Positions 1,055-40,822 of a stretch of DNA of 64,000 nucleotides are shown here, piece after piece. The stretch is from assembly GCA_025617745.1 (NCBI GenBank), contig CM046866.1, positions 14,577,725 through 14,641,724 of the forward strand. The letters are read 5' to 3'. Numbering within the stretch: position 1 is the first letter of the stretch; the number at the start of each line of letters is the position of its first letter. Under the pieces are notes generated by a model. It saw only the letters and a program-made list of their open reading frames with translations, did no database searches and was not told the DNA's origin. The position numbers were made by a program, and so were the translations under genes. The DNA comes from Heliocidaris erythrogramma (taxonomy: Eukaryota; Echinodermata; Echinoidea; Camarodonta; Echinometridae).

Positions 1055-2200
1055 ATATCCATGCATATAGCTAGAGGGAGCGATTTGATCTTGCTATGTT
1101 TCTGTGGTTTAAAGTAGAACACTAATGATTTTAAATACTGGCTTAATACTTATTATTGCATAGATGGCATAAATTAAACAAGGTTATCCAAATTTAAAGC
1201 TTTGAAACATTTGAATTAATGATTATTATCAATTATAAAACGGTAAAATACAGCCCCCGATATAGCAGCTGAAAAGCTCCTTGAACGCTGCTGAGATGTG
1301 TGACGACACAAGAGGGGCGAGTCCTGTTTAAGCAGACGATGTCCCATAACATTATACACATTTTTCAGTGCCTGTTTTGTCATCTCCTCTTCACTTATTT
1401 CTCTTACTTGACTAGCGTCAGTCTTAATGTTAGTCTGTTGCCTCACTCTTAACTTCGTGTATGGTATTATTTTGATGAAAAATGCAGCGTTAAAAAAATA
1501 AAGGAATCAGTCACTTGTAAACAAAATAAGACGCCATTGTATTTTCAGCTGCTTGCACCGGGCATTATCGGCGTTTCAAGAGGGAACGAATACCATCCAG
1601 CTATTATTCGCAGGGCTTTTCAATTTGAAAATGGGGTTTATTTCATTGCTCATTGACCCTTCTCCTGTGTATTTACAATCAAACGGTTTTATTTATCAGA
1701 ATCAGTTCACTTTCCCTTTTAGAATGGTGTGAAATAAGGCCATGTTTAAATGTACCAAACTCTTTATAATTTGATAAATAATTGCATTGCAATTACGTTC
1801 ATTCATTATGGGACGTCGTCTGCTTAAGCAGGATCGATCCCTCGTATGACGACATCAAAACATTGCTATATTTCTGGCGAATCCTCGGATATTCCACATG
1901 CTGAGAAGAGCTTTTATTTATGTTGTTTTTATAATCATCATATACGCAGTTGACATAAAACCTATACGATTGCCATCTGTAAGCTTCCCAATTTCTAGTG
2001 ATACATTAATTGCCATATTTGTGATTTTCTTCAGTGTTCTACTTTAATACTCGAGTGAAATTAAGGCCATGAAAACATAGCATGCATAATTAGCGGTACG
2101 TCCCTTTTAAAGGATACAAAAATGAGAAAAAAATGAATTTATGGTCATTTTCTTTTCAGGGGGATTGGGAGGACCGACGGATTGACTTTTCCCTACTTCT
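1055..2200. repeat. Interspersed repeat, copy 1, split by a transposon
   Basis: Bases 1055-1108 and 2048-2200 match, in order, the uninterrupted stretch at 3420-3660. Shared words are the ATCCATGCATA start, GGGAGCGATTTGATCTTG and the end GATTGACTTTTCCCTACT. The intact second copy shows the empty site of the element inserted here. Confidence 0.75.
1109..2047. mobile_element. Non-autonomous TTAA-target DNA transposon
   Basis: The ends are inverted copies of TTAAAGTAGAACACT, and TTAA is present on both sides, as expected for piggyBac- or Kolobok-type target duplication. The related repeat at 3420-3660 runs straight across the site. Inside, a second imperfect inverted repeat of about 50 bp lies at 1295-1350 and 1803-1856. 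No transposase frame is visible; the 76-codon minus-strand frame at 1216-1446 is not recognisable. The left end of another copy lies at 9951-10043. The superfamily is not settled. Confidence 0.65.
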
Positions 2201-2422
2201 AAAACTCGGTCGCTTCGCTCACTCGCATAATTTCGTTCAAATTCCAATTGACTCTAATTTCTTCTTTTTTTTTTTCTTTCTTTTTTTTTTTTTTTCTTTT
2301 TTTTTGGGGGGGGGGGGGAATCTGCCGCTGTGTCGCGTTGCTCCCTCGCTCATATCATAACTCCGGGTTATGTGCATCAAAACTCACGTAGTGTCATCAT
2401 TTCTAAATTTAAAACGCTCATT

Positions 2423-2680
2423 AGAGGTGTTGTGGATCAGTGGATAAGTCCCCGGACTGTGAACCACGGGGTCCGGGGTTCGAATCCCACCGCAGCACTA
2501 GCGTTCTTTGACGTTAATCTACATTTGCCACTCTCCACCCAGGTGTTAAATAGGTACCCGGTAGGATGGGGAAAGTTAATGCCCTTTGCTTAGCATGTGT
2601 GCGCTTAACAGGCGACTGGCTGGAATGCTCCCCAGGGAGTGGAGAATGTGCATACATTGTGTGCGGACTAATACCCCCCC
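2423..2680 (+). mobile_element. tRNA-derived SINE, copy 1
   Basis: A tRNA-like head is followed by an unrelated body. The A box TGGATCAGTGG is at 2433-2443 and the B box GGTTCGAATCC at 2477-2487. The acceptor arms (GTGTTGT and GCAGCAC) can pair using G-U wobbles, and the anticodon loop reads CTGTGAA. The body recurs at 6893-7152. This copy loses the family's 3' tail at a poly-C tract near 2675-2692. Confidence 0.8.
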
Positions 2681-2751
2681 CCCCCCCCCCCCGGCGACCA
2701 CCGTGAAACCATAAAGTTACATACCGTGACACTAAACTGTGTGTATGTATA

Positions 2752-2789
2752 ACCAAGGAGTTATCACGGACCTGTGATAACTTCTTGGT
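2752..2789. repeat. Perfect-looking 16-bp-arm hairpin
   Basis: ACCAAGGAGTTATCAC and GTGATAACTTCTTGGT flank a 6-base loop and differ at one position. It lies between the SINE and the next repeat. It may be the core of a small inverted-repeat element; no function is evident. Confidence 0.7.
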
Positions 2790-2903
2790 ATAACTCTATG
2801 CGTAGCTGTACATGTCCTTGTGCGCTGTGCGAATGAATAACGCGTGTGAAGCCATACATGCGGATATGGCCTTGGAGTCTATGCTTGAAGTATACACACG
2901 TTT

Positions 2904-3240
2904 CGCGGTTCTAATTACTCCCTGCGGAAATTCAATGTTTAAAAATGAATTTATGAAATATGGACAGCACGTCCATGACCCCTCAAGGTCATGGTCAAAA
3001 ATGACTACTAGCTTTTTGAAGAACTGAAAGGGGCCCAAAATCGAAAATTTTTCGACCCCTGCCTGGCGCCCACGGTTCCCACCACTCTAAGAACCATTCC
3101 CCGCCCGTGGGTACTAAAAGGCGGGGACCGAAAGGGCCAGGGGAGGCGCCTATTCAAACCAAAAAAGGCCCAAATCCTTAGCGTAATATATATATAGATA
3201 TATAGATAGAAGACTAGCAGAAGCAGCCCGTGGACATCCA
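2904..3240. repeat. Two-copy interspersed repeat, copy A
   Basis: Aligns by eye with 8518-8765: TTCAATGTTTA, CCCGCCCGTGGGTAC, GGCGCCTATTC and CCCAAATCCTTAG occur in the same order in both. Both copies end in an AT run and a small palindrome, CCCGTGGACATCCACGGG here. Bases 2965-3062 also match one arm of the palindrome at 7755-7968. The class is unknown. Confidence 0.75.
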
Positions 3241-3419
3241 CGGGGGCTAGCTGTGTTTATGATTAATTACCGTACCGTATATTGTCACAATAATCAAGTG
3301 AATAATAAAAAAGTCGGGTAAAGTTGTTTTTTTTTGCCAAGAAGTATTTACAACATGTAAGTATGTGTTATTTATTCTGAAGAAAATACATGATATGCAT
3401 ATAACTATGTTCGAGTAAA

Positions 3420-3660
3420 TTTATATCCATGCATAGAGCTACAGGGAGCGATTTGATCTTGCCATATTTCTGTGGTTTTATACTCAGAGAAATGAAGGCC
3501 ATGAGAACATAACTTGCATAATTAGCAGTTTGTCCCTTGTAAAGGATGCAAAAATGAGGGGGGGGGGGAAGAATTTAAAGTTGTCATTTTCTTTTCAGGG
3601 GGATTATTGCCTCCATATATGGGTCTTGGGAGAACCGATGGATTGACTTTTCCCTACTAC
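3420..3660. repeat. Interspersed repeat, copy 2 (uninterrupted)
   Basis: The intact counterpart of the repeat split at 1055-2200. It has gained a short poly-G run near 3558. A poly-C/G stretch follows to 3780 with no gene. Confidence 0.7.
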
Positions 3661-4149
3661 CCTCCCGTCACCCCCAGCGCGAGGGGAGACGGAATTAATA
3701 ACCTATACGTATTAATATCATAGTGGAAATATTTTCGAAGGACATTTTGGTGGTGGATCTCCTAGACCTCCCCTCCCCCGAATGATGTCTACAAATCGGC
3801 TTAGTCTGTCATATGTGTTCTGAAGAAAATACATTTTCATCTTGATGAAGACTAAATGATATAAAGACTATAAAGACTATAACCTTTCCCTTGCTCGCAA
3901 ATTTTTCTGGATTAATACTTGATTTTCTGTTTTTTAGTGGTGACCTGGTGACCTGACTTATGAGAGTAAACTCTGCAGATCCAGCTTTTGCTTTGCCGCT
4001 TCGATAGTGGATCACTATTGGTAAGCAGATTTTTGGGGCTTTTTCTCTCACATTATAGCTCCGCACAACTAACACTAGAATAGCACATACGCAGTTTCGT
4101 ATTTCCCGCCAAATTGGCAAGGGTCACTATATATCTTATACCCCCTATT

Positions 4150-4561
4150 ACCAGAGGACTCTGCATCGGGCACCCCGGGCACAGATTTTGAGGGAGATTT
4201 TCAGACTGTTGGGCAATCTAGAAGACGCATGAAAAAGCGAAAAAATACGCGAGGGAAGCCAAAGCGTGGAAAATTTTTCGCTAAGGGCGGACTCATCATC
4301 TGAAAAAGAATTCCAGGACAATACTGTCTTTCGTACCCCAACAGCCGACACCAAATCACCAAACCTGAAAGTTTTCATCAACCCAATTGACAGAGAGAAA
4401 AAAGAGAATTTCTTGAACACAGCCACCAATGAAGAGTTGATCATCTTTTTTGTCAGACTTCTGGTCAACGTTGTTTAAGACCAGTCAGAGGCGGAGGTCT
4501 TGTCTTTTATCAAGGCAGCCGCTGAACGACTTTTGCTTGTAAACCAAGCACAAGTGAGTTA
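4150..4561 (+). pseudogene. LINE ORF1 C-terminal remnant
   Basis: Translates to a basic, Ser/Arg/Lys-rich stretch followed by a segment (FINPIDREKKENFL, then an AAAERLLLVNQAQVS end) comparable in position to the ORF1 tail of copy 2. It contains one in-frame stop near 4478. Its stop codon overlaps the ORF2 ATG region by a few bases, the arrangement expected of two-ORF LINEs. Confidence 0.55.
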
Positions 4562-4573
4562 ATCAAACTCGTC

Positions 4574-6860
4574 ATGTTCGCGCTTCTAATAGTGCAATGG
4601 AATGCGCAGGGCAAGTACGGGCATGGGGAAGAACTGATTCGTTATCTAAACGCAAAAAGAATGAAACTGTACATTTATTATGTTTACAAGAAACTTGGTA
4701 TACAGACAACCATGCAATTGAAATCCCCAATTATACATTTCTAGAAGCAGGAACACCCAACGAAGAGGTGGATGTGCCTTTTACGTTCATAACTCTTTAA
4801 ATTATGATTATCCATGCCTGGAGACAAGCACTGAAATGCAATTGATAAATATACACCTAGATATCTCTGTTATTTCGATAGTTAATTCTTATAATCCATG
4901 CAAAAAGTTAGAGGAAAGCGATATGAATTTACTGTTGCATCACGTAAAAGAACCTACAAAATTGATAATATTAGGGGATTTTCAACTCACTCGGTGGGGA
5001 AGTGCGAAGGCTGACAGCAACCGGAATTTAATTGAAAAACTTCCTCATACAAAATGATATGTTTGTCTTGAATGATGGTTCCGGGACCAGAATGGACCCC
5101 CACACAGGTAAATTATCTTGCCTTGATTTATCAATTACCTCCTCGTCTTTAGCAAATAAATGTGAGTGGCAAGGTTTACAAGATAAACTTGGCAGTGACC
5201 ATTTTCCCGTCAAAATGGATATATATTTTAGAAAACAAAATTTAACATGTGACCCAAACAACTATCCAACTAAGTGGTCCTTCAGAAATATGAACTGGAA
5301 ACATTTTGTGAGAACATGCGAAAAACATTTGAAATCTGATTCCTGTAACAAATTAGATTCACCTTCGACCTATAACCTTTTCATGAAGTGTATTATAGCT
5401 GCTCTTCATGAGTCTGCTCCACAGTCCAGAAAACATAAACAAAATCCAGTCCCTTGGTGGAGAAAGAAATAAGGCTAAAAACAAGTTAAGAAAATATCCA
5501 TGTCAAGAGAATCTTAAGACCTACAAGAAAGCAGAAGCTCAACGCACTATCAGACAGGCCAAAAAGAAATATTGGAATACCTATAGTGCTAAATTAGATC
5601 CGTTTACACCACTCTCACACATTTGGCGCTTCGTAAAGAGATTAAATGGTCTGCAAACCAAAGCAGCGAATAATATGTCTGTCTTGGTGGTTGATAATAA
5701 GACCATGAGTGACAATAAAGAGAAAGCAGGCGAATTCGCAAGTATTTTATTTTTACTGGGGAAAATAAAACCAACAACAGAATAGATGTAGAAATATACA
5801 AAGCATTCAATACTCTCCCCTTAAAGGAAACGGGACATATGAAATTGGCAATTAATGAAAACTTCAAAATGAAGGAACTGGAAAGTGTCTTAGAGACAAA
5901 ACACACTTCAGCTCCTGGTGAGGACAACATAGGCTATCAAGTTTATAAGAACTTTCCAGTAATTGCTAAAGAAAAGATGCTTCTTTTAATCAATCAAATT
6001 TGGGAAACCGGGGAAATCCCGGCACCGTGTAAACACTCTATACTGACTCCCATCTTAAAACAAAATAAAGACCCCACGAAAACAGTTTCATATCGTCCCA
6101 TTGCCTTAACATCATGTTTTATGAAAGACTACATTTTTTTCTTGAAAAGCATGATTTGTTATCCTCAATACAGATTTCGAAAGGGACGATGCACTGTAGA
6201 TAAAATCGTACACCTAGTAAATTAAATACAAAAGAACTTGGAAACTAGACTTAGAGAAGGCATTTGATTTCATGTGGACCAAATGACTTTTAGTCAAATT
6301 AAGTAAGCTTGGACTCAAAGGTAATTCTCTATCTGCACAGTCTTTTAACACAGCGTACATTTCAGGTACGAATAGGAAGACAACTCTCTCGTACTATGGA
6401 AACAAATAAGGTCTTCCGCAAGGTAGTACCCTTAGTCCGGAATTGTTCAATATAATGCTACATGATATACCTGCCTCATCCAATGTGCATAATTTGCTAT
6501 ATGCAGATGATTGTGTAATCTGGAACTCTGGAAGCGATCTTTAAAGAGAAACTAGCAAATATATTCAGAAATTTAAATGTACTGAAGGAATGGTTCTTGT
6601 CATGGGGTTTAAAAATATCTCATAAGAAAACAGTCCTTGTACTGTTCTCCCGCTCGAATAAAGAAGAACACTTCCAGATATCTCTTAACAAGAAAATTCT
6701 TGCTCCTCGAAAGGAACACAAATATTTAGGTGTCAAAGGTGCAAGAAGAAAATAAATATCCTGAAATGTATTGCTTACGCTAAATTTTGTAACAATGTTC
6801 AAGAAATTTTACAAGTTTATAGAGCTATTATACGTTCCCTTATTGACTACGCAGGCGAAG
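4574..6860 (+). pseudogene. LINE ORF2: endonuclease and reverse transcriptase, decayed
   Basis: The start codon at 4574 opens MFALLIVQWNAQG, the first APE endonuclease motif. LQETW gives the catalytic Glu, IILGDF the Asp motif (the usual Asn after it reads Gln), and SDH the catalytic His near 5196-5204. The reverse transcriptase begins at about 5839 (SAPGEDNI), continues with ILTPILKQNKDP and SYRPIALTS, and has the YADD active site at 6500-6511. Known role of the family: nicks target DNA and primes cDNA synthesis on it. The frame is broken repeatedly (for example before 4836, at 5472, 5785 and 6225), so this is a fossil. Confidence 0.85.
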
Positions 6861-6892
6861 CGTATGACTCCGCATCTACAAACATAAAGAAC

Positions 6893-7152
6893 CCCGAGGT
6901 CCGGTTTCGAATCCCACCGCAGCACTAGCGTCCTTTGGCAAGACGTTAATCTACATTTGCCACTCTCCACCCAGGTGTAAATGGGTACCCGGTAGGATGC
7001 GAAATGTCGTTTGCTTAGCATGTGGCGCTTTACAGCGACTGGCTGGAATACTCCCCAGGGAGCGGATAAAGTGCACACATTGTGTGCGGGCATGTCAGAA
7101 TCCAATGACCGGGGTAATAATATATCTGTAAAGCGCTTAGAAACACAACCAT
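6893..7152 (+). mobile_element. SINE fragment, copy 2, embedded in LINE copy 1
   Basis: Starts inside the tRNA-like head at the B box (TTTCGAATCCC) and continues through the same body as the SINE at 2.4 kb. It then has the family's 3' part CTGTAAAGCGCTTAGAAACA. Neither the A box nor the microsatellite tail is present. LINE sequence lies directly on both sides. Its 3' end pairs with the minus-strand SINE tail at 63058-63165. Confidence 0.8.
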
Positions 7153-7336
7153 GGGCAACATTGGGCTAAATCAGAACCTTCTACTTTTAAATACGCACGA
7201 AACGGGTCTGTGTGATAGCTGTGGAATGCCAGAAACTACCACACACTTTCTAATCAAATGCCTCAGATATATAATAGAACGGACAATGCTATTATTTGAA
7301 ACTGTCAGGAGGAAAGGAACATTGAATGATTATTAA
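7151..7336 (+). pseudogene. LINE ORF2 C-terminal Cys/His segment
   Basis: The frame contains CDSCGMPETTTHFLIKC, the CX2C-X7-H-X4-C zinc-like motif at the end of ORF2 in RNase-H-bearing I-group LINEs (CG...ET..H.L..C). This is the end of LINE copy 1 after the SINE fragment. The RNase H region expected before it is absent. Confidence 0.7.
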
Positions 7337-7539
7337 GCTCATCAGAGTATCTACACCAAAAACCATTAGTGGCCTTCGTAAGAGATTCACGTAGATTCAC
7401 TTACCTATAAAGTTGGAGCACTTTGTCTTTATCTATAGAAGAAAACCTTTGTCCAGAGAAATTATGTACATTGTATTCCATACAGTATGACAAATGTTCC
7501 GTCATACTTCGCTTGAATTATAACTACACCATATATCAT

Positions 7540-7720
7540 TATCATAATAGTATTATGCTATTATTATTACTATATTTATATTACACTATACTATATTATG
7601 GTGCATTACGTTAATATGCACCATGTTATATTATATTATATTATATTACATCATAATTATATCATACCCTAGTATTTACATTACCCTGTGTTATCTTATG
7701 ATATCATATTATGGCATATA
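7540..7720. repeat. TA-rich tract with internal hairpin
   Basis: A run of TATTA/TATAT words. ATGGTGCAT and ATGCACCAT around 7599-7625 form an inverted pair. No coding signal. Confidence 0.6.
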
Positions 7721-7754
7721 CTTATGGATGACAGGAAAATTTATGTGTAAAAAG

Positions 7755-7968
7755 ACCTTGACCCCTCAAAAATGGTCAAAAATGGCGCCAAAAATGACTA
7801 CTATCTTTTTGAAGAAGTGAAAGTGGCCCAAAATCGAAAATTTTTTTCGTCCCCTGCCTGGTCAAGGTCATCACAGCATTAAATTTTCGATTTTGGACCA
7901 CTTTCACTTCTTCAAAAAGATAGTGTTCATTTTTGGCGCCATTTGGCGCCATTTTTGACCGTGACCTT
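7755..7968. repeat. Long palindrome, arms of about 85 bp
   Basis: The arms at 7763-7850 and 7882-7968 are inverted copies, containing TTGGCGCCATTTTTGACC, CTATCTTTTTGAAGAAGTGA and CCAAAATCGAAAATTT. The spacer is about 30 bp. One arm also occurs within the repeat at 2904-3240. Probably a foldback element. Confidence 0.8.
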
Positions 7969-8517
7969 CCTGATCACTGTACGTCTAGCTGTTTGATCAT
8001 ACAAATAGTAATATATTAGATATAAGAAAATTTTGTTGAAATATATGTATATATTATATTATATAGTTAGGTCGAGAGTAAAGCATGCACAGTATTGGCT
8101 AGGAAACATATACTACTAACTGCACCATAGGACAAACGCCCAGAATGTCTGCCAAAAATTTATTTTGAAAAGTAATCATCCAGAATTATATGTACATATA
8201 TACCAGTATTAGTAAGTATTTTGTTTCATGTTTTTCTTTCCGGGAAGGAGACGTTCCTACTGATAGGCATCGCATTATCCTGACCGGTTGTAATTGTGAT
8301 TACTTCATTGAATTCTGGTATTATATTCATGCATTGTTCATACTTCGATAATATTCACTATTGATTGTGATGTATGATTGTAATTTGTTCAAGAAAAACA
8401 AGGGTGGAAAAAATTAATTCAATCAAAATCAAATCAAAATACACCAATTGAAGTTTCTCCCCTTCACAGGTAAACGGTATGGGTTAGGGCATCACAGAAG
8501 GTACTTTTTCGTGCGTA

Positions 8518-8765
8518 CGGCAGAATTATTACTCCCTCCGGGAATTCAATGTTTAGAAATGAATTTATTAAATATGAACGGCACGTCAGCCCTTAAAAAG
8601 TGCCTCCCAACCCTCTAAGAACCATTTCCCGCCCGTGGGTACCAAAAGGTGGGGACTGAAAGAGCCAGGATAGGCGCCTATTCGAACCCCCAAAAGGCCC
8701 AAATCCTTAGGGTAATATATATATATATATATATAGATCTAGCGCAACCCGTGGAAATTCCACGT
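8518..8765. repeat. Two-copy interspersed repeat, copy B
   Basis: Counterpart of 2904-3240. It lacks the inner segment with the AAATCGAAAATTT word, and ends in an (AT)n run and CCCGTGGAAATTCCACG. Confidence 0.75.
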
Positions 8766-8933
8766 GTTTTTGAAAGAAATTTTAGGATGGGCATTGTGGT
8801 GTTTGGGGATCAATTAAGATTGGTTGTTGTATGTTTCCTTTTTTTCTGTTATTTTTTTCTGTTTTTTTTGTTTGTTGTTGTTGCAAATTTTGCTGCAGCA
8901 TGTATGCCCGTATATTTTTACACATATACGTAT

Positions 8934-28189: not shown

Positions 28190-28739
28190 GAACTGGCTTA
28201 TCAAGTGCGGGTTTACAGAGAAATTCATGATCTTGTTGGAAAACTTGTAGGTATGGTTAAAGTAAAAAATATGTTGATTTTGACATGTGAGAATGAGAAA
28301 CAAATTAAAACCCTGTTACAGTTAACATAGTTGGCTGGTTTAGACGTAAAAACTACACGTTATGAAGAAGATCAGGTGGTTACAACGAAAGGGGTCATCC
28401 ATAGAATCGATACTCAAATCAGCAATGAAGAAATAGCAGATGTATTAAGAGAACAGAATGTAATAAATGCTAAGAGATTTAGGAAGAAGATCAATGGAGA
28501 AATGGTACCCACTCCATCGGTACTTATTACTTTCAAAGGTAAAAGTAAACCGGATTCTGTAAATTTTCTCTATGAGATTAGGCGTGTGGATAACTTTGTC
28601 CCACCCGTGACAAGGTGTCATCAGTGCCAACTATTTGGTCATATGAAAGATAATTGTAAGGGTAAAATACGTTGCGTGAGATGCGGAGGCGAACATGAAT
28701 TTGACGCTTGCGCACAAAAGGAAAACAGGAAGTGCTATA
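28190..28739 (+). pseudogene. LINE ORF1, middle part with zinc knuckles
   Basis: Reads NPELAYQVRVYREIHDLVGK, then one stop at 28328, then a long frame. The frame ends in CHQCQLFGHMKDNC (CX2CX4HX4C) and CVRCGGEHEFDAC (CX2CX3HX4C). These are the gag-like knuckles of ORF1 proteins in I/Jockey-group LINEs, which bind the element's RNA. It ends in KCY at the insertion point. Confidence 0.8.
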
Positions 28740-28947
28740 TAAGCCCGCCTCACACTGTGCGATTTCCTGCGATATCGCGTCGCATCGCAGGAGATTGCCC
28801 GAGACCGTGCAGTGTGAGAGGTCTTGCGACGCAACAGCAGGCGATTTTTCCAATATCGCAAGCAATCGCCTCGCATCGCAGGGTTTTGAACATGTTCAAA
28901 AATTTTGTTGCGATGCGATGCGATGCGATGCGATTTCCATCTAGTGG

Positions 28948-29105
28948 ACAGAGGAACAACGGAGAAAGGGGAGGAGATTCTCCTTCAAATGTGGCAGAAT
29001 AGCCGGATAGGCCATCATTATTTAACATCAGCCTGCCGGCCTATCACAATCGCGTGACAAAAGACAGAATGAAGATGGAAACATGTTACGAGTTTGGATG
29101 TAACC
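28948..29105 (+). pseudogene. MADF-like exon inside the TIR element
   Basis: SLFNISLPAYHNRVTKDRMK matches the LYD.s...Y.N...r...W pattern of MADF domains. The expected N-terminal helix (EEILLQMWQ) is in another frame just upstream, so one frameshift separates them, and a stop lies before PDRPSLFN. The exon ends at a good donor, CC|GTAAGT. The partner exon was not found. Probably the remnant of the transposon's own DNA-binding protein. Confidence 0.5.
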
Positions 29106-30980
29106 GTAAGTAATTTGATGAAATTGTGCACTATGCATTTTTTATCGCACAATTTTTTTGCATATGTAGTCCCGTACATAGGATTTGATTGGAGTGTGAT
29201 TTCATCGTTTTGCGCAGTGCAGGAATGGGTCGAAGATCTGACATGAGTCTTGAGTATGGCTGTTACTTTGGATGGGAATTTTACCCTGAAAATTTAACTT
29301 AATCGTTTTGGCGAACCTCACTTGGTCTGGGATTCTCATTGCCAAATCATACCAGAACTTGAAGTCTGGTGCACACATTTGTACATTAATATATTATCTA
29401 GGCCTAAGATTAACTAATTTGTGGGATGCTAGTTTGACTTAAGTCAAGACCTACTTTGTAACTCTAATTTCTAAATCTAATTCTAAAAAGGAATCTAATT
29501 AACCTAGTATAATAGTAAAGTAAAACAAAGAAAGTTACTAGGCCCTAGATCTAAATTACTTAGAGACAAATAAATGTAAAAACCCCATGCATATTACTGA
29601 CCTCTAACTTTTTTAGGGACTACTATTCCCCCAAAATTCGGACTCCTTTCATCTCAATTCTAACCCACAAAGTACACTCAACAGCGGCAGAAGCAGTGAC
29701 AAGAGTAACTATACACAGCCCTGTCGCGCCGTCTGGTCGGGCTATGACAAGAGTTGTACTATAAAGCCTACTAGTAATAATAATAATAATAATAATAATA
29801 TTCAGTTCTTGTATAGCGCATAACACATTGCCTTGGCATGTCCCTATGCGCTTGTATAGCAGAAAAAGAAATAACAGCATATAGAATATATAGAACTGCT
29901 TTAAAGCAAGAAAAACAAAGTACATTTGGTGTTCGGCACTGGGTTCATATGCATGCAAATCAAGTGTAGTCTAGGTCTAGTCTTCGTTGTGGGCACAAGA
30001 AGAGGAACTATGTTTTTACATAAATAATATGTAAGTTCATAGTTGACTCGTCTAAGTTAGAAGAGAGAGTGTTGCAGCTGGCAGCTGGCCGAAGAAGTAC
30101 GGTATGTACGGTTATTAAAATAATTTGGCCCCCAGGGCGCTGGACCGACGCTTGCCTCGTTTCGGTACCTCAACTTCCCTGAGATATGGGCTCGGCAGCC
30201 ATGTCCATCAGTGCTTACATGCGTCGTAAACAGCATACAAATTTTAGGTAGCTGCTTTTCTCGTTGGTATTTTTTTTTTCAATATACATAGATGTATTAG
30301 ATCTATAATATTTTTCAAAATTTCCCCTCTCTTCTAGGATTCTTTGCCATGCTGGATAAATGGATTTTATTTATATTAATTAATAGGTCGATATATTTTG
30401 CATCTCAGTTTTTGCACTCTACTATTATCCACAGCTCACCCAATACTAAGCTGAGTTGAGATGACAGGCAAATTTATTTCAGGTTTTTGCTCAAATTTAT
30501 GATTAAGGATCAAAGAATTCTTCATTATTCAATTTGTAAGGAGTCGTACTGAAAGTGAGGTTTTGGGTATCATTTACCTTGTTCACAAAACAATAAGTGT
30601 TTAAATTCTTTTATAGCTGCAATGTATTTTACTTCCCATTATTCAAACATAATCTCTTTTTCAGTTAACCCATTGCCTTCTGGAATCAGGTGGGTCCTGT
30701 ATCAAGTTTTGAGCAAACTTTAGGGAATAAGAGAATTCAGCAGTCAACAGCTACATGTTAATACTTTGAAAGTTATTGTGAGATCTACTTTAGATGATCA
30801 TGATTATGTTGTACTATTTGTTTCAGAATATTCATATTGATAAGTTAAGAATGTATTTTAAAATGTCATTAATCACAATGTAAGAAAGTTTGTAACATGT
30901 TTCTAGCTTTTGCCCCCCCCCTTATTTTTTTTGCATAGCTCATTTTCTAATTGAAACTTATTTTTACTATCTTTTCATAG
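29106..30980. other. Non-coding interior of the TIR element
   Basis: AT-rich. The only recognised feature is the SINE tail at 29766-29855. A first exon of the leucine-rich gene would be expected here, but I could not place it. Confidence 0.5.
29766..29855 (-). mobile_element. SINE 3' tail with (TAA)n
   Basis: On the minus strand: GCGCATAGGGACATGCC, then ATGCGCTATACAAGAACTGA and (TTA)n. The GCGCTATA-plus-microsatellite end parallels the SINE tail at 63058-63165 but the body differs, so it is a different subfamily. Confidence 0.6.
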
Positions 30981-31117
30981 GATTTTTCAAGCTGTCTCTT
31001 GGAAGCTGTTCTGCAAGCAGTATACCATCTCATGAGAAACGCAGTGCTATCAACCCTCGATCTTTCCCACAATGCACGCACTGTAATGTCAAAGAAATTG
31101 CCGTGGAAAAGTTACTG
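30981..31117 (+). CDS. Leucine-rich-repeat gene (LRRC20-like), exon a
   Basis: Acceptor CTTTTCATAG, donor TTACTG|GTAAGA. It encodes DFSSCLLEAVLQAVYHLMRN, then LSTLDLSHN, an LRR core. The arrangement parallels the first LRR of vertebrate LRRC20 (LDLAECKL....IYKVLRN...LITLANN). Vertebrate LRRC20 is a small LRR-only protein of unsettled function. The exon ends in phase 2, whereas the next recognised exon needs phase 1, so an exon is missing, unseen or damaged. It lies inside the 8.9-kb TIR element, so it may be a captured copy rather than the parental gene. Confidence 0.6.
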
Positions 31118-31785
31118 GTAAGAATTGAGACTTTTAAAGAAAATTATAACTTGTCATGCAGGTTCCTTTTTTTAAAACTTTTACCTTGTCTTGTTTCTTT
31201 TATTTTGATTGAATTTAGTTGTTCAAAAAGATAGTCGTATAATTTGCCGAGAAATAACATGAACACAACAGATACCAGAGGGACGACACCTTTAATTCAT
31301 TCAAATAAAATGCTTAATTTTTATTTAATCTGTCAAAACATATTTTTATAAATGAATAGATTTTCATTGATTTTAATTGCAATTGCACAAAATTATTTTG
31401 AATGTATTGCATTCAGGCTGAGCGAAGCAAAGAAATTCTGGATCTTATCTCTTAATCAGTTTTTATTCTTTGTCAAACATCTATCCAGTAAAGTGTATTC
31501 AAGTACAGTATAATATGCTGATAATTTGTTTGCTGTTTGATTTAAGCAGGGAAATGTAATTAACTCTTAGTTACATTTCCCTGATTTAAGCCAGTGAGAA
31601 TGAGTTTGATTGTAGAGTAATCAAGGGTGTTACTAAACTGATGGATTTAGTTAATGTACCCTTTTTTTCTTTTTGTTATTAGCTCTTTATTACTTATCAT
31701 TGTACCTCTCATGTTTTATTAATGAAGCTGTAAACATCTCAGATAGCATCTACCAGATGAAATCTACCAGATGACCATCCTATAG

Positions 31786-31887
31786 AAGCTATAAATGCCT
31801 CACACAACCAAATATTCGCCTTGCCAGAGAGTTTCTATGAACTGTCATCGCTCAGAATTTTAGATTTGAGTGACAATGAAATCACAG
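31786..31887 (+). CDS. Leucine-rich-repeat gene (LRRC20-like), exon b
   Basis: Acceptor CATCCTATAG, donor ATCACAG|GTATGT. It encodes AINASHNQIFALPESFYELS followed by SLRILDLSDNEIT, one and a half canonical LRRs (LxxLxLxxNxI). No stop interrupts it. It corresponds to the central LRRs of LRRC20-type proteins. The following intron carries the inverted Penelope-like insertion. Confidence 0.7.
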
Positions 31888-32318
31888 GTATGTTCTCTTA
31901 TTTCTCACTCATATGTCTGAATAAATATGAAATGTGAATACATTAATAATAAGGATTGAAAACCAGGAATGAATTCAGCTTGTGCTGGACTTTGCTGGAT
32001 TTCTGTCTTGTATCGAGCAAAACAAAATTCCCTATTTATTCCCGGTAATTATGATTTTTGGAATCCAGCTGCCAGCCCTTCCCAGGTAAATTACATCCAA
32101 GGTTATAACATAATTTAGTCCAAAAGGGGGCTGCAGGAAAAAAAATCCTCAAAAAGCCCTTTTATGTCTTTGTTTTTCTCTAAGGGTGGGGGGGGGGGTT
32201 GGCCTCTTCAGTTTTCACTTCACCCCATGAATCTGCATGCATGTATGTTTGAAATAAATAAATAAGTGCTTGGTACTGCAAAATCGGAAAATAGCGTTAA
32301 ACACGGACATAATATGTA

Positions 32319-32362
32319 CAAAATACTAAAGCTTTTCGACATGCACTCATCAGAGTAAATTC
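32319..32362 (-). ncRNA. Hammerhead ribozyme-like motif, left arm
   Basis: Exact mirror of the motif at 33431-33474, on the minus strand. Confidence 0.6.
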
Positions 32363-32491
32363 GCATGAATGAACAGAACGCCAGAAAACGAAACAATATA
32401 ATAGAGCCGAAGGAACAGTGGACGCTAAATAGCGCGATATGATTGGCTGAACAAGGTTAGGTCTAGTAACAGCCGTTCGGTCGAACAAATG

Positions 32492-32830
32492 CTAAAATAA
32501 CGCAAGTGTTCTTACGAACTCCTTCTGACGGCACAAAATGGGGTCAGTAAGCCGAATGTATGATGCCTCGAGCATGCGCAGGTGATTAAAACTTCTCGCT
32601 CGGCTGAGAACCCTGAACCAAGATGAACAGTATTGTTCCGCGCATTCTTGGTTATTCGATAGATGGTAAGCAATGGCCGACTTGCCACTATCCACGGAAG
32701 TAGGCACATTTAGTTGTGTACAAGAGCGTGAAGGTTGTGGGCGCGCGTTAGTTTGACGATTTCGGATTGACTTGGGCACATGTTGGCTAATGCGATCTGC
32801 TAACCGTTGGGTTGTGCGTCCTATGTATCT
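32492..32830 (-). CDS. Penelope GIY-YIG endonuclease end, inverted copy
   Basis: Minus-strand frame starting RYIGRTTQRLADRISQHVP and ending RQKEFVRTLALF, the same as the right arm. The N-terminal residues before RYIGRT come from the spacer read backwards and have no meaning. Only part of the endonuclease domain is represented. Confidence 0.75.
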   Translation of the reverse strand, partial: RYIGRTTQRLADRISQHVPKSIRNRQTNARPQPSRSCTQLNVPTSVDSGKSAIAYHLSNNQECAEQYCSSWFRVLSRARSFNHLRMLEASYIRLTDPILCRQKEFVRTLALF

Positions 32831-33301
32831 GGTGTTTTCCCTGCTGTTGAAGCGCGTGTGGTATTTACCACTCATAGAATGATCTCGTCTGTCCGAAAGG
32901 ATGTGCTCCCTATTACGCATTGCAGTAATGTTATTTACGAATTTAAGTGCCGATGTGAAGCTCGGTACATAGGACGCACAACCCAACGGTTAGCAGATCG
33001 CATTAGCCAACATGTGCCCAAGTCAATCCGAAATCGTCAAACTAACGCGCGCCCACAACCTTCACGCTCTTGTACACAACTAAATGTGCCTACTTCCGTG
33101 GATAGTGGCAAGTCGGCCATTGCTTACCATCTATCGAATAACCAAGAATGCGCGGAACAATACTGTTCATCTTGGTTCAGGGTTCTCAGCCGAGCGAGAA
33201 GTTTTAATCACCTGCGCATGCTCGAGGCATCATACATTCGGCTTACTGACCCCATTTTGTGCCGTCAGAAGGAGTTCGTAAGAACACTTGCGTTATTTTA
33301 G
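32830..33301 (+). CDS. Penelope-like GIY-YIG endonuclease, C-terminal part
   Basis: The frame reads RVVFTTHRMISSVRKDVLPI, then VIYEFKCRCEARYIGRTTQR and LADRISQHVP. VIYEF stands for the GIY strand, YIG follows, and the CxC pair lies before it as in Penelope-like proteins. GIY-YIG nucleases nick DNA; in these elements the nick is thought to prime reverse transcription. About 150 residues are present, all from the end of the polyprotein; the reverse transcriptase that should precede it is not here. The frame is open to the stop after RTLALF. Confidence 0.8.
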
Positions 33302-33430
33302 CATTTGTTCGACCGAACGGCTGTTACTAGACCTAACCTTGTTCAGCCAATCATATCGCGCTATTTAGCGTCCACTGTTCCTTCGGCTCTATTATATTGT
33401 TTCGTTTTCTGGCGTTCTGTTCATTCATGC

Positions 33431-33474
33431 GAATTTACTCTGATGAGTGCATGTCGAAAAGCTTTAGTATTTTG
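33431..33474 (+). ncRNA. Hammerhead ribozyme-like motif, right arm
   Basis: TACT (stem I), CTGATGA, GTGCATGTC, GAAA, AAGCTT, T (cleavage position), AGTA (stem I partner). The cores equal those at 26369-26408, while stem I differs on both strands in a compensating way (TACT/AGTA against TGATAAC/GTTATCA). This covariation supports a real RNA fold. Stem II is again weak. Confidence 0.65.
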
Positions 33475-33653
33475 TACATATTATGTCCGTGTTTAACGCT
33501 ATTTTCCGATGTATGTTTGAGTAATACTGGCATCCATAATTTCATGATTCACAAATTAAAATCCATATTTGAATATTAATAAGAACAAATGAAATGACAA
33601 TACATTTGGTTTTTCTATCAATGAAAAATTAAATACCGTACATGAATTTCAAG

Positions 33654-33811
33654 CAAATGTGCAACTCTTTGGCATGTCTGTCATTGAAGAAATCAACTTG
33701 GAGCACAATCCCATACCTGGTGATACCTACTCAGAACTTTTACAATTGTCTCAGGAATCCAACATCAAACCGTTAATATCTGAGCCGTCTCCTTCAGATC
33801 ATATGGATTGA
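33654..33811 (+). CDS. Leucine-rich-repeat gene (LRRC20-like), last exon
   Basis: The acceptor ATTTCAAG is plausible but not strong. The exon encodes VQLFGMSVIEEINLEHNPIP, then GDTYSELLQLSQESN and a short tail ending SDHMD before TGA. INLEHNPI is an LRR core; LRRC20 proteins end similarly with an INL.FNPL repeat and a short tail. Downstream, AATAAA-type signals occur near 34785 and 36349, so a long 3' UTR is possible. The Penelope insertion lies in the preceding intron. Whether this copy is transcribed cannot be told. Confidence 0.6.
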
Positions 33812-36800
33812 AGGTGGTATTTTCTTTGTTCAATCCCCCCCCCCCCCCCAATCACTCCCACACTTGGAAATTATGTTGTCAGCATAGTAGTCTCCAAACA
33901 CAGACCCTAATTTGACACTTAATCAGAAAATCATTGTCTTGAGAGAAGCCTAATTCAGCTACCTTCTGGTCATGTCAGGAGCAGCTATAGTACATGGCCT
34001 ATGGTAGTCTTACAGTGCAGACACTCTTTTAAAACTGACCAGGGTTACTGCCTGCAAACTATCAGTATAGGGCCATTCACAAACGGGGCAATGTTGATTT
34101 TTGGAAATCGGTACTAGTTTTTGAGACATTATTCAAAGCTTTTTATGTATGTGGACATGAAATCTCTGAAAATAGTGAGATTCTAGTTGTTATTCAAATT
34201 GTCATTACTAACTTTACAGTTAAATTACTTTGCAGGCACAAAACTTTGTCAATTAGCATAATTCAATATCCAGATTTAACCCCTCATAGTTCATAAGGCT
34301 TTCCTATACTAAGGTTTTCTTGACACAGACAGTGACATAGCCAGCATATGGTGAAGCCTATACACCCTGGTTCCAACTATTTGGAGACAATTCCACTGTC
34401 CTGATCAACAGCCTCCAAACCAACTTTGAGGGACCCTGGTTTAAAACTGAATCCCGTCTTTCAGATGGCATTTCTATGCCCAAAAGTAAATAATCATGTC
34501 TGATTAATATGTGTCTGTAAAAACCCACTTGTAAACATTGGTGCAATCATAGCTAACAGAAGCAGTGGCAGATTTAGGGGGGGGGGGGGCACATCCGGCC
34601 CGTACCCCCACCCTTTTTGGAAGAAAAATGTGCATTGTGCCTCCCTTTTTAGAACGGAAACCTTTCTATTATATGATAATTGTATTGTTTGTTATACAGT
34701 ATACTATATATTGATGATTCAAGCAAAATTTGCATTTGAAAAATGTAGTTACTTGAAAATTGGGAGATGAAACGTTTTTATTTTCAATAAATCATGTGAA
34801 CTACTGAGAATCCATGAAATAAATGTACAATCAGGAACAACATCTAATAGCACAACTCTCTGTCTCAGCTAGTTGTGATTCAAATGAAAAAAACAAAAAC
34901 AACACCAAGTCCATGCATGAGCAGGGGAAAACAAAATTGCCTTATCAAAATGATTGTCTTTCAATTACATGTATTTTTCTTTTGTTGGGGGGGGGGGGAA
35001 ACTATGGTTTGTTTCATTACATGTTACAGGTTTTTAATAATTACAGAATTTCTTTTCTGTTTGTATTGCTGAAAGAAGAAAAAAAATATTCTAGTGTGCT
35101 TGCACTTCCTTCATACAATCTTGTATTATATGACTGGAAGGCATTCTATGCGATGCATTTTGTTTAGCCTCTGCTATAAAAAGAAAGTGCGAATTGTAAT
35201 TCTTTACATTTATCAGACAAGTATAATAATGATTAACAATTATGATTAACAATCTTGTGAAATGAAATTTAAATTTGGGTTTATTGCAATTACTGTGCCA
35301 AAATATAAGATTTGTATTTCATATTTAATAATAGGATAACTATTATGTATGTATAAACTGTACTTCAAAAAAACATGTTTATAGACTTGATAAATAATTG
35401 TCGATTTTTTTTCTTCATTATCAGAATATTTATATAAATAAGGATTCACAACTTCAACAAACAACTGAATATTTTTATACAACTTGTTAAATGTCATCAA
35501 TTTCCAATTTGGTTTCTAGCAGAAAGAAAAAACACAAAACCCACTCAACATTATTCACCCGCTTGTACCTTATTTGGGTTATTTAGAGTTTCGCTCTAAT
35601 AGAAGACCTCAAAAAAGTGCTTTCCAAATGTCAACATAAGATATGATTGCTTATATCATGTTTGTGCAGAAATGTAATTTGATATTTTCGAATCATTGAT
35701 AATGAAAAAGGTGAGAATGAAAAAAGTGAGAGAGGGGGAAAAGGATACAGAAACATATGAAGGAATTTTATTTAATACTGGATCTATGATTTTATATATG
35801 GTGTGTTCTCATGAAAGTGAATATACATGTTATGTAAATGTTGATCAAGAAATGATATTATATTTGTATAGCTAATTTGTGTTAAGATACTATTTAAGAT
35901 CATGATGTGCATAAAACAAGTAAAAAATGGTTGACAATGACAAATATTGAAATGCTCCCCCAGATAGAAATATGTAACTCTACATATACATGTAATTTGT
36001 ATACTAATATTTGTTATAATATTGGTAATGTTTCTTGAGGTATTGATTTGATATTAAGCAGATGTTCCACTAAATGTAATGCACATGGTTTGTTTGTTAA
36101 AATGTATACATAAACAGAGGTGGGGCTGTGTTTTCATTTCAGGAAAATGGACCTTGTGTGTTTACTGGAACTATGCTTGACTCACTGTAAGCACATTCTC
36201 TCTCTCTCTCTCCCTTTCCCTCTTTCTTTCTCTCTTTTCTTTTCTTTTATCAAAATCATTTCATTTGTATTTCCCATAAAATAGAGTAACTTTTCTTTAA
36301 CATGCAGCTTTCATCTTGCTATTGTAAGGGATATTCAGCACGTCTCCAATAAAGATGCATGATACCTATGTCACTAACAGCTCGGTGTTTCACTCAGTCC
36401 TATGTGAATATTGTTTACTGAGAGGGGATGTGAGAGAGTTCCAGAGAGAGAGAGGGGGAGGGGGTGGAAATAATTATAGTTCTAATAGTCATTGAGAAAT
36501 ATTAAGAGAGCAATAGCGGGGGACAGGAGAGAGAAAGTGATGTGGAGAAGCAAATAAAGAATGATATAGATAGAGAACGGGGGAGGGGCAAAGATCGGGG
36601 CACATCCAAACTTTTAAAGGGGCGGGGCACACACAGAAAATACCTGACAATCAAACAGAAGAAAAATAAAAAAAAATAAACAGATGAATGCTCGGAAACC
36701 ATTACCCTATTAAACCCATACTTCTGATGAAATAACGCCCAGAGCAATTGTCACCGAAGCAAATGCCGGATCACCGCTTAATTAAGACAATGAACTGATT

Positions 36801-36816
36801 CTATTATAATTCATAT
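33812..36816. other. Non-coding interior of the TIR element, right part
   Basis: AT-rich DNA, perhaps partly the 3' UTR of the leucine-rich gene. It holds a hAT-like terminus at 34568 (CAGTGGCAGATTTAGG plus G run), G or C runs at 33838, 34578 and 34986, (TC)n at 36195-36245 and a purine tract at 36425-36570. No transposase frame was recognised. Confidence 0.5.
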
Positions 36817-37079
36817 CATTGGCGGATCAGGGGGGGGGGCACTTCCTGCCCGTGCCCCCCCCCCTTTTTGGAAGAAAAGTATGCATTTTGACCATAGACG
36901 ATCCGCCATTTTCTTACTGAGCGAATTTTGAAGGTTTGGCGAAAATTTGTCCCCCCCCCCCCCCCCCCTCCACTGAGCAACTTTTCGAGAAGCTGGCGAG
37001 ACCACAAAAATAGGGTCTACTTTTTGACAAACTTTCATTTGCGTGCCCCCTCTTTTACTCAATCCTGGATCCGCCCCTG
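36817..37079. mobile_element. 263-bp hAT-like MITE with poly-C/G tracts
   Basis: Ends CATTGGCGGATCAGG and CCTGGATCCGCCCCTG are imperfect inverted repeats. The 8-bp duplication ATTCATAT abuts both ends exactly. The interior has G and C runs of 10-20 bases. It defines the terminus seen in several partial copies elsewhere in the window. Confidence 0.85.
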
Positions 37080-37615
37080 ATTCATATTATCAATATTTCA
37101 TTCTGCCAAGAAAAAACCAACAAATCGGTGAATCCAAAATAAACACAGTTCAAGAGAAGTCAAATGGATGTCGGGGAAAAAATAAATCGATTAACTAAAT
37201 AACTATAACCCGAAGTTCATCTTTTCTTTTCCAATCCATCTAACTTTACATAGAATAAAAAATGTACCTCTCCCCTAAATGTTGGTTACCTCATTTATAA
37301 TTATAAGTCTCTATACTAATTTCAATTACTACATAGGCTACACATTCGTTACACATGCGTTTCATGTCTTTTTTATTTAAAAAACATAATTACCTTTCAA
37401 GTTTTAGGAATTTTGTTTACGTGTGTCAGTTAATACTACTACAAATCGCGTTATCAGTAATGAAGTACGCATGCGCGAAATGCTAAAATCGCACAGTGTG
37501 AGACATGAATCGCAGATCCTGTGGTAGCCTGCGATGGCCTGCGATATCGCTTTGCATCGCATCGCATCGCATCGCAAGTGATCGCTTGAAAAATCGCACA
37601 GTGTGAGGCGGGCTT

Positions 37616-39416
37616 TAGATGTGGAGATAATCACTCGGCGGCGTATCAAGGATGCAAATCTAAGCAAATACAAACAATTAAATTGAATGAAAAGCTCACA
37701 TACGCGCAAGCGACAAAAGTGTATCCCACTCAGAAAAATGTAAATGTTGTAGAGACGACTAATAACACAGTCAACACGAGTAACTCCAAAGAGAACCCTC
37801 AAAGTAAACGGAACAAATTAGATTCCAACTTAAATTTACAGAGTCCTGGACATGAAACAAACCCTCACTCCCATATCCCACCCGCGACTCGAGTACACAA
37901 GAGAAAAGAGAAAAGGCGGGAAAGAGACAGGGATTCTGAGCAGGGTTCTTCAAATAATATTCAAACTGGCTTTCCCAATAATGTGACATCATTAGATTTG
38001 ATTATGTTCATTCTGGTTGCGATACGTAAGTTACTTCTTTCTGAGAACGATGATCAATTTGTGGAAGCCGCTGTCAAAGCTGGTAAAGATTTTTTTAAGG
38101 CAGACAATACCATGGAAGTGGTAAAATGCCGCCTTATTAAAATGACACAGCCCGTTTCAGATATAACTATAATACAATGGAATGCACAAGGTATGATTTC
38201 ACATGATGCGGACTTTTTAACGCCAATATTTGATAATAATTTATTGGGTTCTAACCCAGATATTATGTGCATTCAGGAAACATGGTTTAATGACTATAAT
38301 GTGTCCTTTATTCCGAATTACATTTGTGTCTGTAGAAATAGACCAGATGGTAGAATAGGTGGTCTAGTTATATATTTTAAAAAAGATATTACTTTCCAGG
38401 TTATGAACGTTAAAGGGAATATCGAATACCAAAGAGTTGATATTTTTTCAAAGAAAGGGATTATTTCAACTTTTAATTATTATAATCCATGTAAAAAGAT
38501 TGAAGTGGAAGAATTAAATGAGATGGTTAGAAATGTGCCAGGGAGGATCATAATTCTGGGCGATTTTAATAGCCACAACCCACTCTGGGGGAGCAGTAAA
38601 TTAGATGCAAACGGCAGAACCGTAGAGGCTTTTATGGAAGATCAGGATCTAGCATTGCTAAATGACGGTTCTCCAACGAGGTTAGACCCTCATTTTGGAA
38701 CATATTCAATGCTAGATTTATCTATAGTTTCCAAGGAACTAGCGTGTAAAATGGAGAGGGAAGTACGGTCTAACAACTTTGGCAGTGATCACAATGCGAT
38801 TGTTATTAAATTGAAACAGTCGGGCAATACGATTATACATGAATACACAGATATGGGATTTAGATGGAGTTTTAGAAATGTAAATTGGGAAGGGTATAGA
38901 AATGCAATAAAAGAGGAATTATTAAATCAAGAGTATAATAGTGACTTTAAATTAGATATTCAAAGTCGATACAACGCCATTGTTAATGTTATTCTGAATG
39001 CGTCAAACAGGTACATTCGTCGAGTTCGACTAGAAGGGGGGAAAAGAAGTAAAATAACTCCCTGGTGGAACGAGGAGTGTCAAAAAGCAGTTGCAGAGAG
39101 GAATCATATTAAAAACAGATTAAAAAGGTATTATGACATAAATGATGTTAAACAATACTTACAAAAGAAAGCCTTTGCACAGAAGGTACAGAGAAGGGCT
39201 CGTTTCGACTATTGTTCTCAATACTGTGCTAGAATGAATAGATTTACAGACATAGGGAAAGTGTGGAAACAGGTGAAAGGAATGCGAGACAGAACAAGGA
39301 ACACTCACATTTTTCACAATCGAATCGTCGATGGTAATATGGTAAGTGAGTCTAAAGATAAAGCAAACGCCGTGTCATCCTTTTTTTCAAATCTATTGAT
39401 AGATCATTTTCCGTAA
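37616..39416 (+). pseudogene. LINE ORF1 end fused in frame to ORF2 endonuclease
   Basis: Resumes ORF1 at RCGDNHSAAYQGC, the third zinc knuckle. It then runs from LNEKLTYAQA without a stop through a basic region into ITIIQWNAQG, the start of the APE endonuclease. Endonuclease motifs: CIQETWFND (catalytic Glu), IILGDFNSHNPLWG (Asp/Asn), SDHNAIV (catalytic His). Then comes the linker with PWWNEECQKAV. In LINE copy 1 ORF1 and ORF2 are separate. Here a run of seven T at 38090-38096 lies just before the join, a possible slip site. The frame ends at 39416 before the reverse transcriptase. The endonuclease domain itself looks intact. Confidence 0.85.
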
Positions 39417-39429
39417 ACGATAATGAAAT

Positions 39430-40822
39430 TGATGATGCTCTATTTACCCACATTATGGATGATGACTGTATTAATGATGATTTTAATATGAATGAGTTGA
39501 GGAACGTTTTAAAAGAAATGAGAAACTCCGCTCCAGGTAAGGATGACATTTATGTGATTATGTTAAAAAACTTGCCCCCAATAGCACTTGTTTACATATT
39601 AGAGTTATATAAATTAATGAAATCTGGGAAAATTCATGTTTTCCAAGCCAGTGGTATGAAGCATGGGCGGTAATCGTGACGTCACTCTATTCATCATGGG
39701 GGGACGACACAATAGCCGTCCCCCCCCCCCCCCCCCCCATGAACAATAGATTCTCTACTCGGATTGACGCCCATGGTATGAAGTTGTCCAGATACCTATT
39801 TTGAAACCTGGAAAAGAAGTGACGGATGTGTCATCTTACAGACCAATTTCGTTATTATCTTCCCTCTTTAAAGTCATGGAAAAAATGATTAAAAATCGGC
39901 TGACTTGGTATTTAGATAAAAATAAACCCAATTCAATCAGGATTCCGTAAATATCGAAACGTCAAAGATCATTTAATCAGACTCGAGACCGACATACACT
40001 CAGCATTGAGTGAGAAAAAATGTATTGTAGCTGTTTTTCTAGACTTGGAAAAGGCATATGACTCGTTATGGAAAGGAGGTCTCATAAAAAAATTGTCAAG
40101 GTTAGAAATTCATGGAAAATTATTATGTTTTATTAAAGCTTTCTTAAAGAATAGATATTGTAATGTTAAGGTTAACAATTGTTTGTCGGAAAATTATGTG
40201 TTAGAAAACGGTATCCCCCAACGAGTTCTTTAAGTCCTGTACTTTTTACTTTCATGTTGAATGACTTAAAGATTAACGAAAGTGGAGTTAAATTATCATG
40301 TTATGCCGATGATATTGCAATTTGGTTTTCTGGTTCCAACTTAGATCTGGTTCGCCAGAGACTTCAGGAAGCCCTCCATGAAATTGAAATTTGGTGCTGG
40401 AGGTGGAAATTAAAGATTTCACACACCAAGTCGGTAATTTTGGTATTTACCAATAAACAAAAGAAAGACATTGCTTTGAAAATAAATGGGCATGTTTTGC
40501 CTCATTGCGAGCAGTTTCTTGGTATGTGGCTGGATTATAAACTAACTTGGTCGGTCCATATCAACGCACTTATTGAGAAGTGTAAGAAAAGATTAAATTT
40601 ATTACGTTGCGTTTCAGGAACAACATGGGGAAATAAGTATGAAATTTTGATGATATATATAAAGGACTTATTTTATCTGTTTTAGACTATGGCAGTGAAA
40701 TGTATGATTCTGCGTGTATATCTCTGAAGAAAAAGCTAGACGCTATACAATACAGAGCACTAAAAATTATTACAGGGACTATACATAATGTATCCTTGGA
40801 GGCTCTACAGGTGTTAACCGGG
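39430..40822 (+). pseudogene. LINE ORF2 reverse transcriptase, decayed
   Basis: SAPGKDDI starts the domain, followed by a MITE at 39662. After it come ISLLSSLFKVMEKM, AVFLDLEKAYDSLWKGGL (catalytic Asp of motif A) and YADDIAIWF at 40302 (motif C). Later GMWLDYKLTWSVHINALIEK and LDYGSEMYDSACISLKKK lead toward the thumb. The reading frame changes several times (for example near 39940, 40210 and 40685). It ends abruptly at LEALQVLTG, where a minisatellite begins. Confidence 0.85.
39662..39775 (+). mobile_element. 114-bp hAT-like MITE, copy 2
   Basis: CATGGGCG...CGCCCATG termini with the 8-bp duplication GTATGAAG on both sides. Same family as 27804-27900 in inverse orientation, with a longer poly-C run (about 19). 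It interrupts the LINE reverse transcriptase. Confidence 0.9.

Follow-up and report, generated by a model that had tools for sequence, protein, structure and literature searches.

A PIF/Harbinger-type transposon family in Heliocidaris erythrogramma that appears to have captured a whole LRRC20-like gene

In a stretch of 64,000 nt (the window; all window coordinates are positions within it), a LINE is interrupted by a DNA transposon with a leucine-rich-repeat (LRR) gene inside it. The best explanation, to which we give a probability of about 87%, is that a non-autonomous PIF/Harbinger-type element captured a whole four-exon LRRC20-like gene, after which the gene decayed and the element was amplified in trans. 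The evidence consists of the element's ends and target site, a family of copies with a shared interior, a chain of matches to an intact predicted gene elsewhere in the genome, and lesions that the copies have in common. Gene capture by a Harbinger-like transposon had already been proposed in a first-pass annotation of this stretch, and it is still the best reading, given the same interior in many copies and the intact gene without terminal inverted repeats (TIRs) on contig C20.

Ends, target site and copies of the element

The two ends are inverted repeats, as the first-pass annotation had it: 28741 to 28765 and 37591 to 37615 are 100% complementary over 25 nt in inverted orientation. Comparison with other copies sets the bounds of the element proper (AGCCC...GGGCT) at 28742 to 37614. 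It is a single unit with perfect 24-bp TIRs, and the TIR of the family is AGCCCGCC. The features at and near the ends are as follows.

28331..28736, + strand: interrupted LINE, left part, with ORF1
28742..28765, + strand: left TIR, AGCCCGCCTCACACTGTGCGATTT (from end comparison, other copies and a genome-wide pattern search)
28970..29104, + strand: first exon, MADF-like; an 8-nt insertion shifts its frame, and its donor is GTAAGT
37591..37614, - strand: right TIR (from end comparison, other copies and a genome-wide pattern search)
37615..37617, no strand: right target-site duplication, TTA (three other LINE copies have TTTAGA there)
37615..39413, + strand: interrupted LINE, right part, with an endonuclease domain (PF14529, 2.7e-21)

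The surrounding LINE is itself repetitive, and its uninterrupted form is present elsewhere in the genome: the joined LINE flanks (241 nt) gave 40 scored places (of 96 candidates), all of which span the join, with 92 to 96% identity. The three of these 40 places that we read all have AAGTGCTTTAGA[T/C]GTGG, with TGCTTTAGA at the insertion site. Two of the three keep the CFRC codons of the zinc knuckle, and the third has CFRR. Because the uninterrupted copies show TTTAGA, the target was TTA and not TA. Taking out the element with one TA would thus come close to rebuilding the zinc knuckle, as had been claimed, but not quite: in the window, TTA stands at the right end, and on the left the duplication has become ATATA (28737 to 28741). 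A second stretch of endonuclease- and reverse-transcriptase-like ORFs, at 4722 to 6222 of the window, looks related to the LINE at 37615 to 40682.

We then searched the genome for the 24-mer TIR with up to 2 mismatches, which gave 183 forward and 189 reverse sites, or ends for about 186 elements; the reversed control pattern had 0 sites in either direction. To pair the ends, we used the first 100 of these sites, all of which are exact matches on contigs C1 to C6. Eighty-two of these make 41 +/- pairs (up to 30 kb apart) and 18 are unpaired. Among these 41 pairs, 31 span 6.5 to 10.5 kb, 3 are shorter and 7 are longer (median, 7790). A scored match to LRR exon 4 lies within 28 pairs and is missing from 13, with 150 of 339 candidates scored; once matches to exons 2 and 3 are added, 33 of the 41 pairs contain at least one LRR exon match by our own count. 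The segment reported at 8.9 kb is real (8.87 kb), and it belongs to a multicopy family. The first-pass annotation had suggested a genome search with both ends, and in most of the copies examined these ends flank the same LRR gene.

The three short pairs are one MITE of 101 bp and two others below 6.5 kb. The MITE (L054 42-142, at C4:5532871) consists of just the family's two ends and has TTAA flanks on both sides. We considered it as a clue to the origin of the family and dropped it, as it holds nothing besides the ends. The seven long pairs, of 13.7 to 22 kb, were considered as candidates for an autonomous element and rejected: six hold an exon-4 match and the seventh (C2:14549862) holds matches to exons 2 and 3. 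Since all seven have LRR exon matches, they look like cargo copies with insertions.

For a closer comparison, we fetched 20 copies, chosen by best left-end match. The 400-base flanks of these copies and of the window copy have no mutual similarity at E of 1e-5, and the mean pairwise substitution between copies is 1.9% (range, 0.9 to 3.8%; L011 was left out because it shares too little). The left flank ends in TWA in 19 of 21 copies. With the window copy included, both ends were readable in 14 copies; in 10 of these the left and right duplications are the same, TTA or TAA, as expected of the 3-bp TWA duplication of PIF/Harbinger, and in L010, L016, L027 and the window copy they are not. From the target-site duplications and the unrelated flanks, we infer that the element was mobile. 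TTA is a target typical of PIF/Harbinger, and the duplications and the ends together point to this superfamily. Grapevine PIF elements, as described in PMC2528002, have TAA or TTA target duplications.

LRR exon 3 is covered by 17 of the 20 fetched copies, and by 12 of the 13 that have both ends inside the fetched stretch. The others (L011, L025 and L026) have a deletion or other sequence in its place. The exon-4 matches within the TIR pairs were counted independently of how these copies were chosen. Past the 1.0 kb that it shares with the family, L011 (1-3571, stored orientation) leads into other ORFs, which we take to resemble a RecQ-type helicase and a PHD finger; its right end is not within the fetched stretch. 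L025 contains what looks like a nested LTR retrotransposon with long open frames (3257-8784). The right end is duplicated in L016 (825-2005, stored orientation): it is found, together with its flank, TTAGAAGATCGATT, at two places separated by 1.2 kb.

These copies also bear on whether two independent short MITEs might flank a host gene in the window by chance, with no capture. A 101-bp derivative made of just the two ends does exist. However, many unrelated sites have this interior between these ends, which already refutes the idea, and the LINE is uninterrupted elsewhere; we see almost no chance that it is correct. The first-pass annotation had allowed that the ends might prove to be separate short MITEs. 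Instead, the copies share an interior, and just one of the 41 pairs is a MITE.

We did not find a transposase. Pfam searches of ten window ORFs, eight of which are in the element, did not identify one, and none was seen by eye in the other ORFs of the element that we looked at. Nor did we find an autonomous copy of the TIR family among the copies examined, and a search against Rfam gave no match. Besides a DDE transposase (DDE_Tnp_4), PIF/Harbinger elements have a second protein with a Myb/SANT/MADF domain, and a MADF-type exon had been reported here. This exon has a good donor and recurs in the family, but the match is weak: it scores 14.8 bits with an X at the frame break, or 16.4 bits if read through the 8-nt insertion, and the Pfam cut-off is 22. 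Across 28 family sequences, the 8-nt insertion is present wherever the exon could be read, except that one copy has 7 nt instead. A separate autonomous MADF family was rejected, as the places that we compared with the TIR list (150 of 189 candidates were scored) fall inside this family; a full-length match without stops, at C1:47311719, sits within a family TIR pair.

The prevalence of the cargo raises another possibility: the cargo-bearing form may have replaced its own parent because its 5.5 kb of host DNA favoured it, for example through regulatory sequence or through small-RNA silencing of the host gene. This is suggested by the 33 of 41 pairs (among the listed sites) with an LRR exon match, by the three pairs below 6.5 kb, and by the autonomous copy that was not found. 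We consider this explanation unlikely.

The LRRC20-like cargo gene and its decay

The exon-4 search also led to a locus without the element. At C20:18285925-18293739, there are four predicted exons, all GT-AG, that join in frame to encode 180 aa with a strong match to LRR_8 (5.1e-28). The predicted protein is 31% identical over 154 aa to a human LRRC20 sequence, and judging from its sequence it is a small LRR-only, LRRC20-like protein. LRRC20 is an ordinary animal gene. We found no TIR within 16.6 kb of the C20 gene at up to 7 edits.

When profiles of the copies were compared to this locus with nhmmer, element positions 896 to 6394 (of the 7441 bases of copy L024) matched C20 2865 to 15116 as a chain, with a best E of 8.8e-79; the reversed control gave one match, with E of 0.0013. 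On C20, the chain starts some 60 bases ahead of the ATG, takes in the introns and ends about 4.4 kb past the stop; stretches of introns 1 to 3 and of the 3' flank match. The chain has gaps (element 996-1068, 2660-2796, 3013-3391, 3741-3928 and 4181-4672, for example, and also the second half of exon 1) and one match that is out of order (element 1735-1826, E of 4e-8), and there are weak minus-strand matches to C20 (E of 0.0035 to 0.005). For the outer parts of the element (1-895 and 6395-7441), the sole match to C20 is on the minus strand (6764-6906, E of 0.0047). The captured segment measures 5.5 kb or more. In the window, its parts are as follows.

28742..29625, + strand: 5' part without a C20 match, presumed to be transposon sequence
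29626..36560, + strand: putative captured host segment with the LRRC20-like gene; it begins about 60 bases upstream of the ATG, includes the introns and later insertions, and extends to about 2.7 kb past the stop (from the nhmmer chain to C20)
29680..29713, + strand: relic of coding exon 1 (its first part), with the start codon lost
30981..31117, + strand: relic of exon 2, with an 8-nt deletion relative to the C20 gene
31728..31887, + strand: relic of exon 3 (LRR), with a 2-nt insertion and the ACAG|GTATGT donor kept
33662..33811, + strand: relic of exon 4 with the ancestral stop; the acceptor and the first codons are lost in the window copy
36561..37614, + strand: 3' part, presumed to be transposon sequence, with one weak minus-strand C20 match (E of 0.0047) and otherwise none

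Exon 3 alone matches LRR_8 with E of 3.4e-7 in the form that other copies have, from which the window differs at two residues. The three exons of an LRRC20-like gene that the first-pass annotation recognized are all confirmed, but the gene was more than these three: a fourth, exon 1, survives in its first part as a relic. The annotation had also argued from introns that the capture was genomic and not derived from mRNA, and had suggested comparing the LRR exons with a parental gene. That comparison could be made with the intact predicted gene on C20, which has no TIR, and because the element and this gene have introns in common, the argument holds. What was captured is, as far as the alignments indicate, a genomic copy of the whole gene, from before the ATG to past the stop. 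With introns kept, as opposed to a retrocopy, and with a predicted parent that is not associated with a transposon (the C20 locus has no TIR and the chain is confined to element 896-6394), the element would be classified, in the features tested, as a Pack-TIR of PIF/Harbinger type.

The element family is 63 to 69% identical to C20 in two aligned stretches with exons, and 66 to 86% in the main local matches. Because identity is only 63 to 69%, the C20 gene need not be the direct donor; either the capture would be old or the donor would be another copy of the gene. The same low identity, as compared with a difference of about 2% within the young family, might suggest that the cargo came from another species and that the element arrived by horizontal transfer. 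We give this a slim chance. Intermediates with fewer lesions in the same genome (L049 and L050) suit a long residence instead, although they could be old duplicates of the gene too.

The captured gene has lost its reading frame. We looked for the lesions of exons 2 to 4 in 28 family sequences, and every sequence that could be read has them: 22 of 22 for the 8-nt deletion in exon 2, 24 of 24 for the 2-nt insertion in exon 3, and 23 of 23 for a 1-nt deletion in exon 4. The last count leaves out the window copy, whose acceptor is deleted, so that its exon-4 lesion cannot be read. The ATG of exon 1 is also lost, in the one copy that we compared. (An 11-nt insertion in exon 2, which we had considered, was rejected: relative to C20, 8 nt are deleted.) All three LRR lesions are absent from the C20 gene. 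As the three frameshifts are common to the readable copies, the cargo is very likely dead, that is, a pseudogene in those copies, and it most likely does nothing as a protein.

Conversely, might the LRR gene be the transposon's own useful gene, with the C20 gene as a domesticated copy? An LRR exon match is found in 33 of the 41 pairs among the listed sites, and exon 4 is free of stops in nearly all of its scored matches, though short frames may stay open by chance. However, frameshifts in exons 2, 3 and 4 are common to the readable copies; the C20 locus lacks a TIR and also, save for one weak match, both end regions; and its protein resembles LRRC20 (against the human sequence). An origin of the gene within the transposon is therefore very unlikely, and capture of a host gene is our preferred reading.

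Two forms of exon 4 can be distinguished. By our own count, 33 of 150 scored exon-4 places (of 339 candidates) reach at least residue 48, one of which is the C20 gene, and the remaining scored places end earlier, mostly at residues 30 to 36. These early ends fit a 17-nt deletion in exon 4, which is present in 17 of 17 copies that we read. The window copy has the longer form. In a tree of exon 4 (28 rows, midpoint root), C20, then L049 and L045, lie outside the family; few of its forks (4 of 24) are well supported. L049 (on C10) lacks the exon-4 lesion. L050 (on C2) lacks the lesions in exons 2 and 3 and has one earlier frameshift in common with the older copies. Each may be either an element copy from early on or an old duplicate of the gene. 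LRR-like loci also occur as pairs: C2:36009900-36010846 and C2:36059133-36060084 are 49 kb apart, and C7:5557297 and C7:5645302 are 88 kb apart. These pairs may be paralogues, or old copies that were duplicated locally.

Proposed history and comparison with known elements

Under the capture reading, a non-autonomous PIF/Harbinger-type transposon would have taken, at the DNA level, a genomic copy of a whole four-exon LRRC20-like gene, together with introns and DNA downstream of it. The captured gene would have decayed through frameshifts, and the composite of about 7.4 kb would have been moved by a transposase supplied in trans. Amplification would have had at least two steps, with one form that has the full exon 4 and another that has the 17-nt deletion, and would account for the ends of about 186 elements; the copy in the window, with its full exon 4, would have landed on TTA inside the LINE. 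We infer this order of events. The capture might have come about when two neighbouring elements transposed as a unit, or through gap repair or template switching, and we favour neither route. Published models include two neighbouring elements that are moved together (PMC8903248) and fork switching with gap filling (PMC8277862).

In plants, TIR transposons are well known to capture genes. PIF-superfamily elements with captured gene sequence, as here, include Pack-PIF of maize (PMC8903248) and Pifvine-3 of grapevine, which also captured exons and introns (PMC2528002). As these papers describe them, some of these captures are multicopy, and grapevine PIFs mostly have TAA or TTA duplications, as in our family. 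However, the maize and grapevine cases involve plants and parts of genes, whereas ours involves an animal and a whole gene.

In animals, the first-pass annotation had called a transposon that carries an intron-containing gene uncommon. The survey of Tan et al. 2021 (PMC8277862) describes 370 Pack-TIRs in 100 animal genomes, four of these Pack-TIRs being multicopy; in that survey, such elements are rare and nearly always single copy. Because the survey covered 81 vertebrates and 19 invertebrates, this rarity may partly reflect sampling. The Pack-TIRs of the survey are mostly hAT and TcMariner, and the word "Harbinger" is absent from the available text of that paper (PMC8277862). In the open-access PMC literature that we searched, no title or beginning of an abstract described gene capture by a Harbinger element in an animal.

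Like our family, the animal Pack-TIRs of PMC8277862 are TIR elements with duplicated host DNA, and the multicopy ones have distinct target-site duplications and a distant parent. The frog Pack-TIR in that paper is 291 bp and is found at three places, whereas here at least 5.5 kb and a whole gene are carried by a family with ends for about 186 elements. Ssk-FB4 of Drosophila is more similar in that nearly a whole gene, which is drawn with introns, was captured and moved again (PMC8277862). It differs in its number of copies (four in populations), in the length of its TIRs (about 700 bp) and in its MULE-like character, and it is presented as a young protein family, while the cargo here is broken (PMC8277862). 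Turmoil-1 of Caenorhabditis elegans also has host coding sequence inside an animal DNA transposon, but in the available account its host sequences lie within the inverted repeats (PMC2572040), which is not the case here.

If the capture reading is correct, then this family shows that a whole gene with introns can be taken up by an animal PIF/Harbinger-type element and brought to a copy number of three figures as the gene decays. With graded lesions, possible relics and an intact predicted gene in one genome, the capture, the decay, the amplification and any effect on the host gene become testable.

Later changes in the window copy

At 8.87 kb, the window copy is long because of later insertions, chiefly a palindrome of 1.26 kb.

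32253..33508, no strand: later insertion with 545-nt inverted arms, a GIY-YIG-like ORF and a 12-bp duplication, ATGTATGTTTGA

The arms of this insertion are identical, and it has a tail of AATA repeats. Its GIY-YIG-like ORF scores 18.2 bits, against a cut-off of 22.6, and the insertion resembles a truncated Penelope-like insertion. Relative to L024, the window copy has a further short insertion near 29777-29965, and it lacks 57 bases around the exon-4 acceptor. Finally, the element contains short repeats with G runs and C runs at 34580-34639 and 36830-36890 of the window, which are about 82% alike; one of them also matches L045 on C7.
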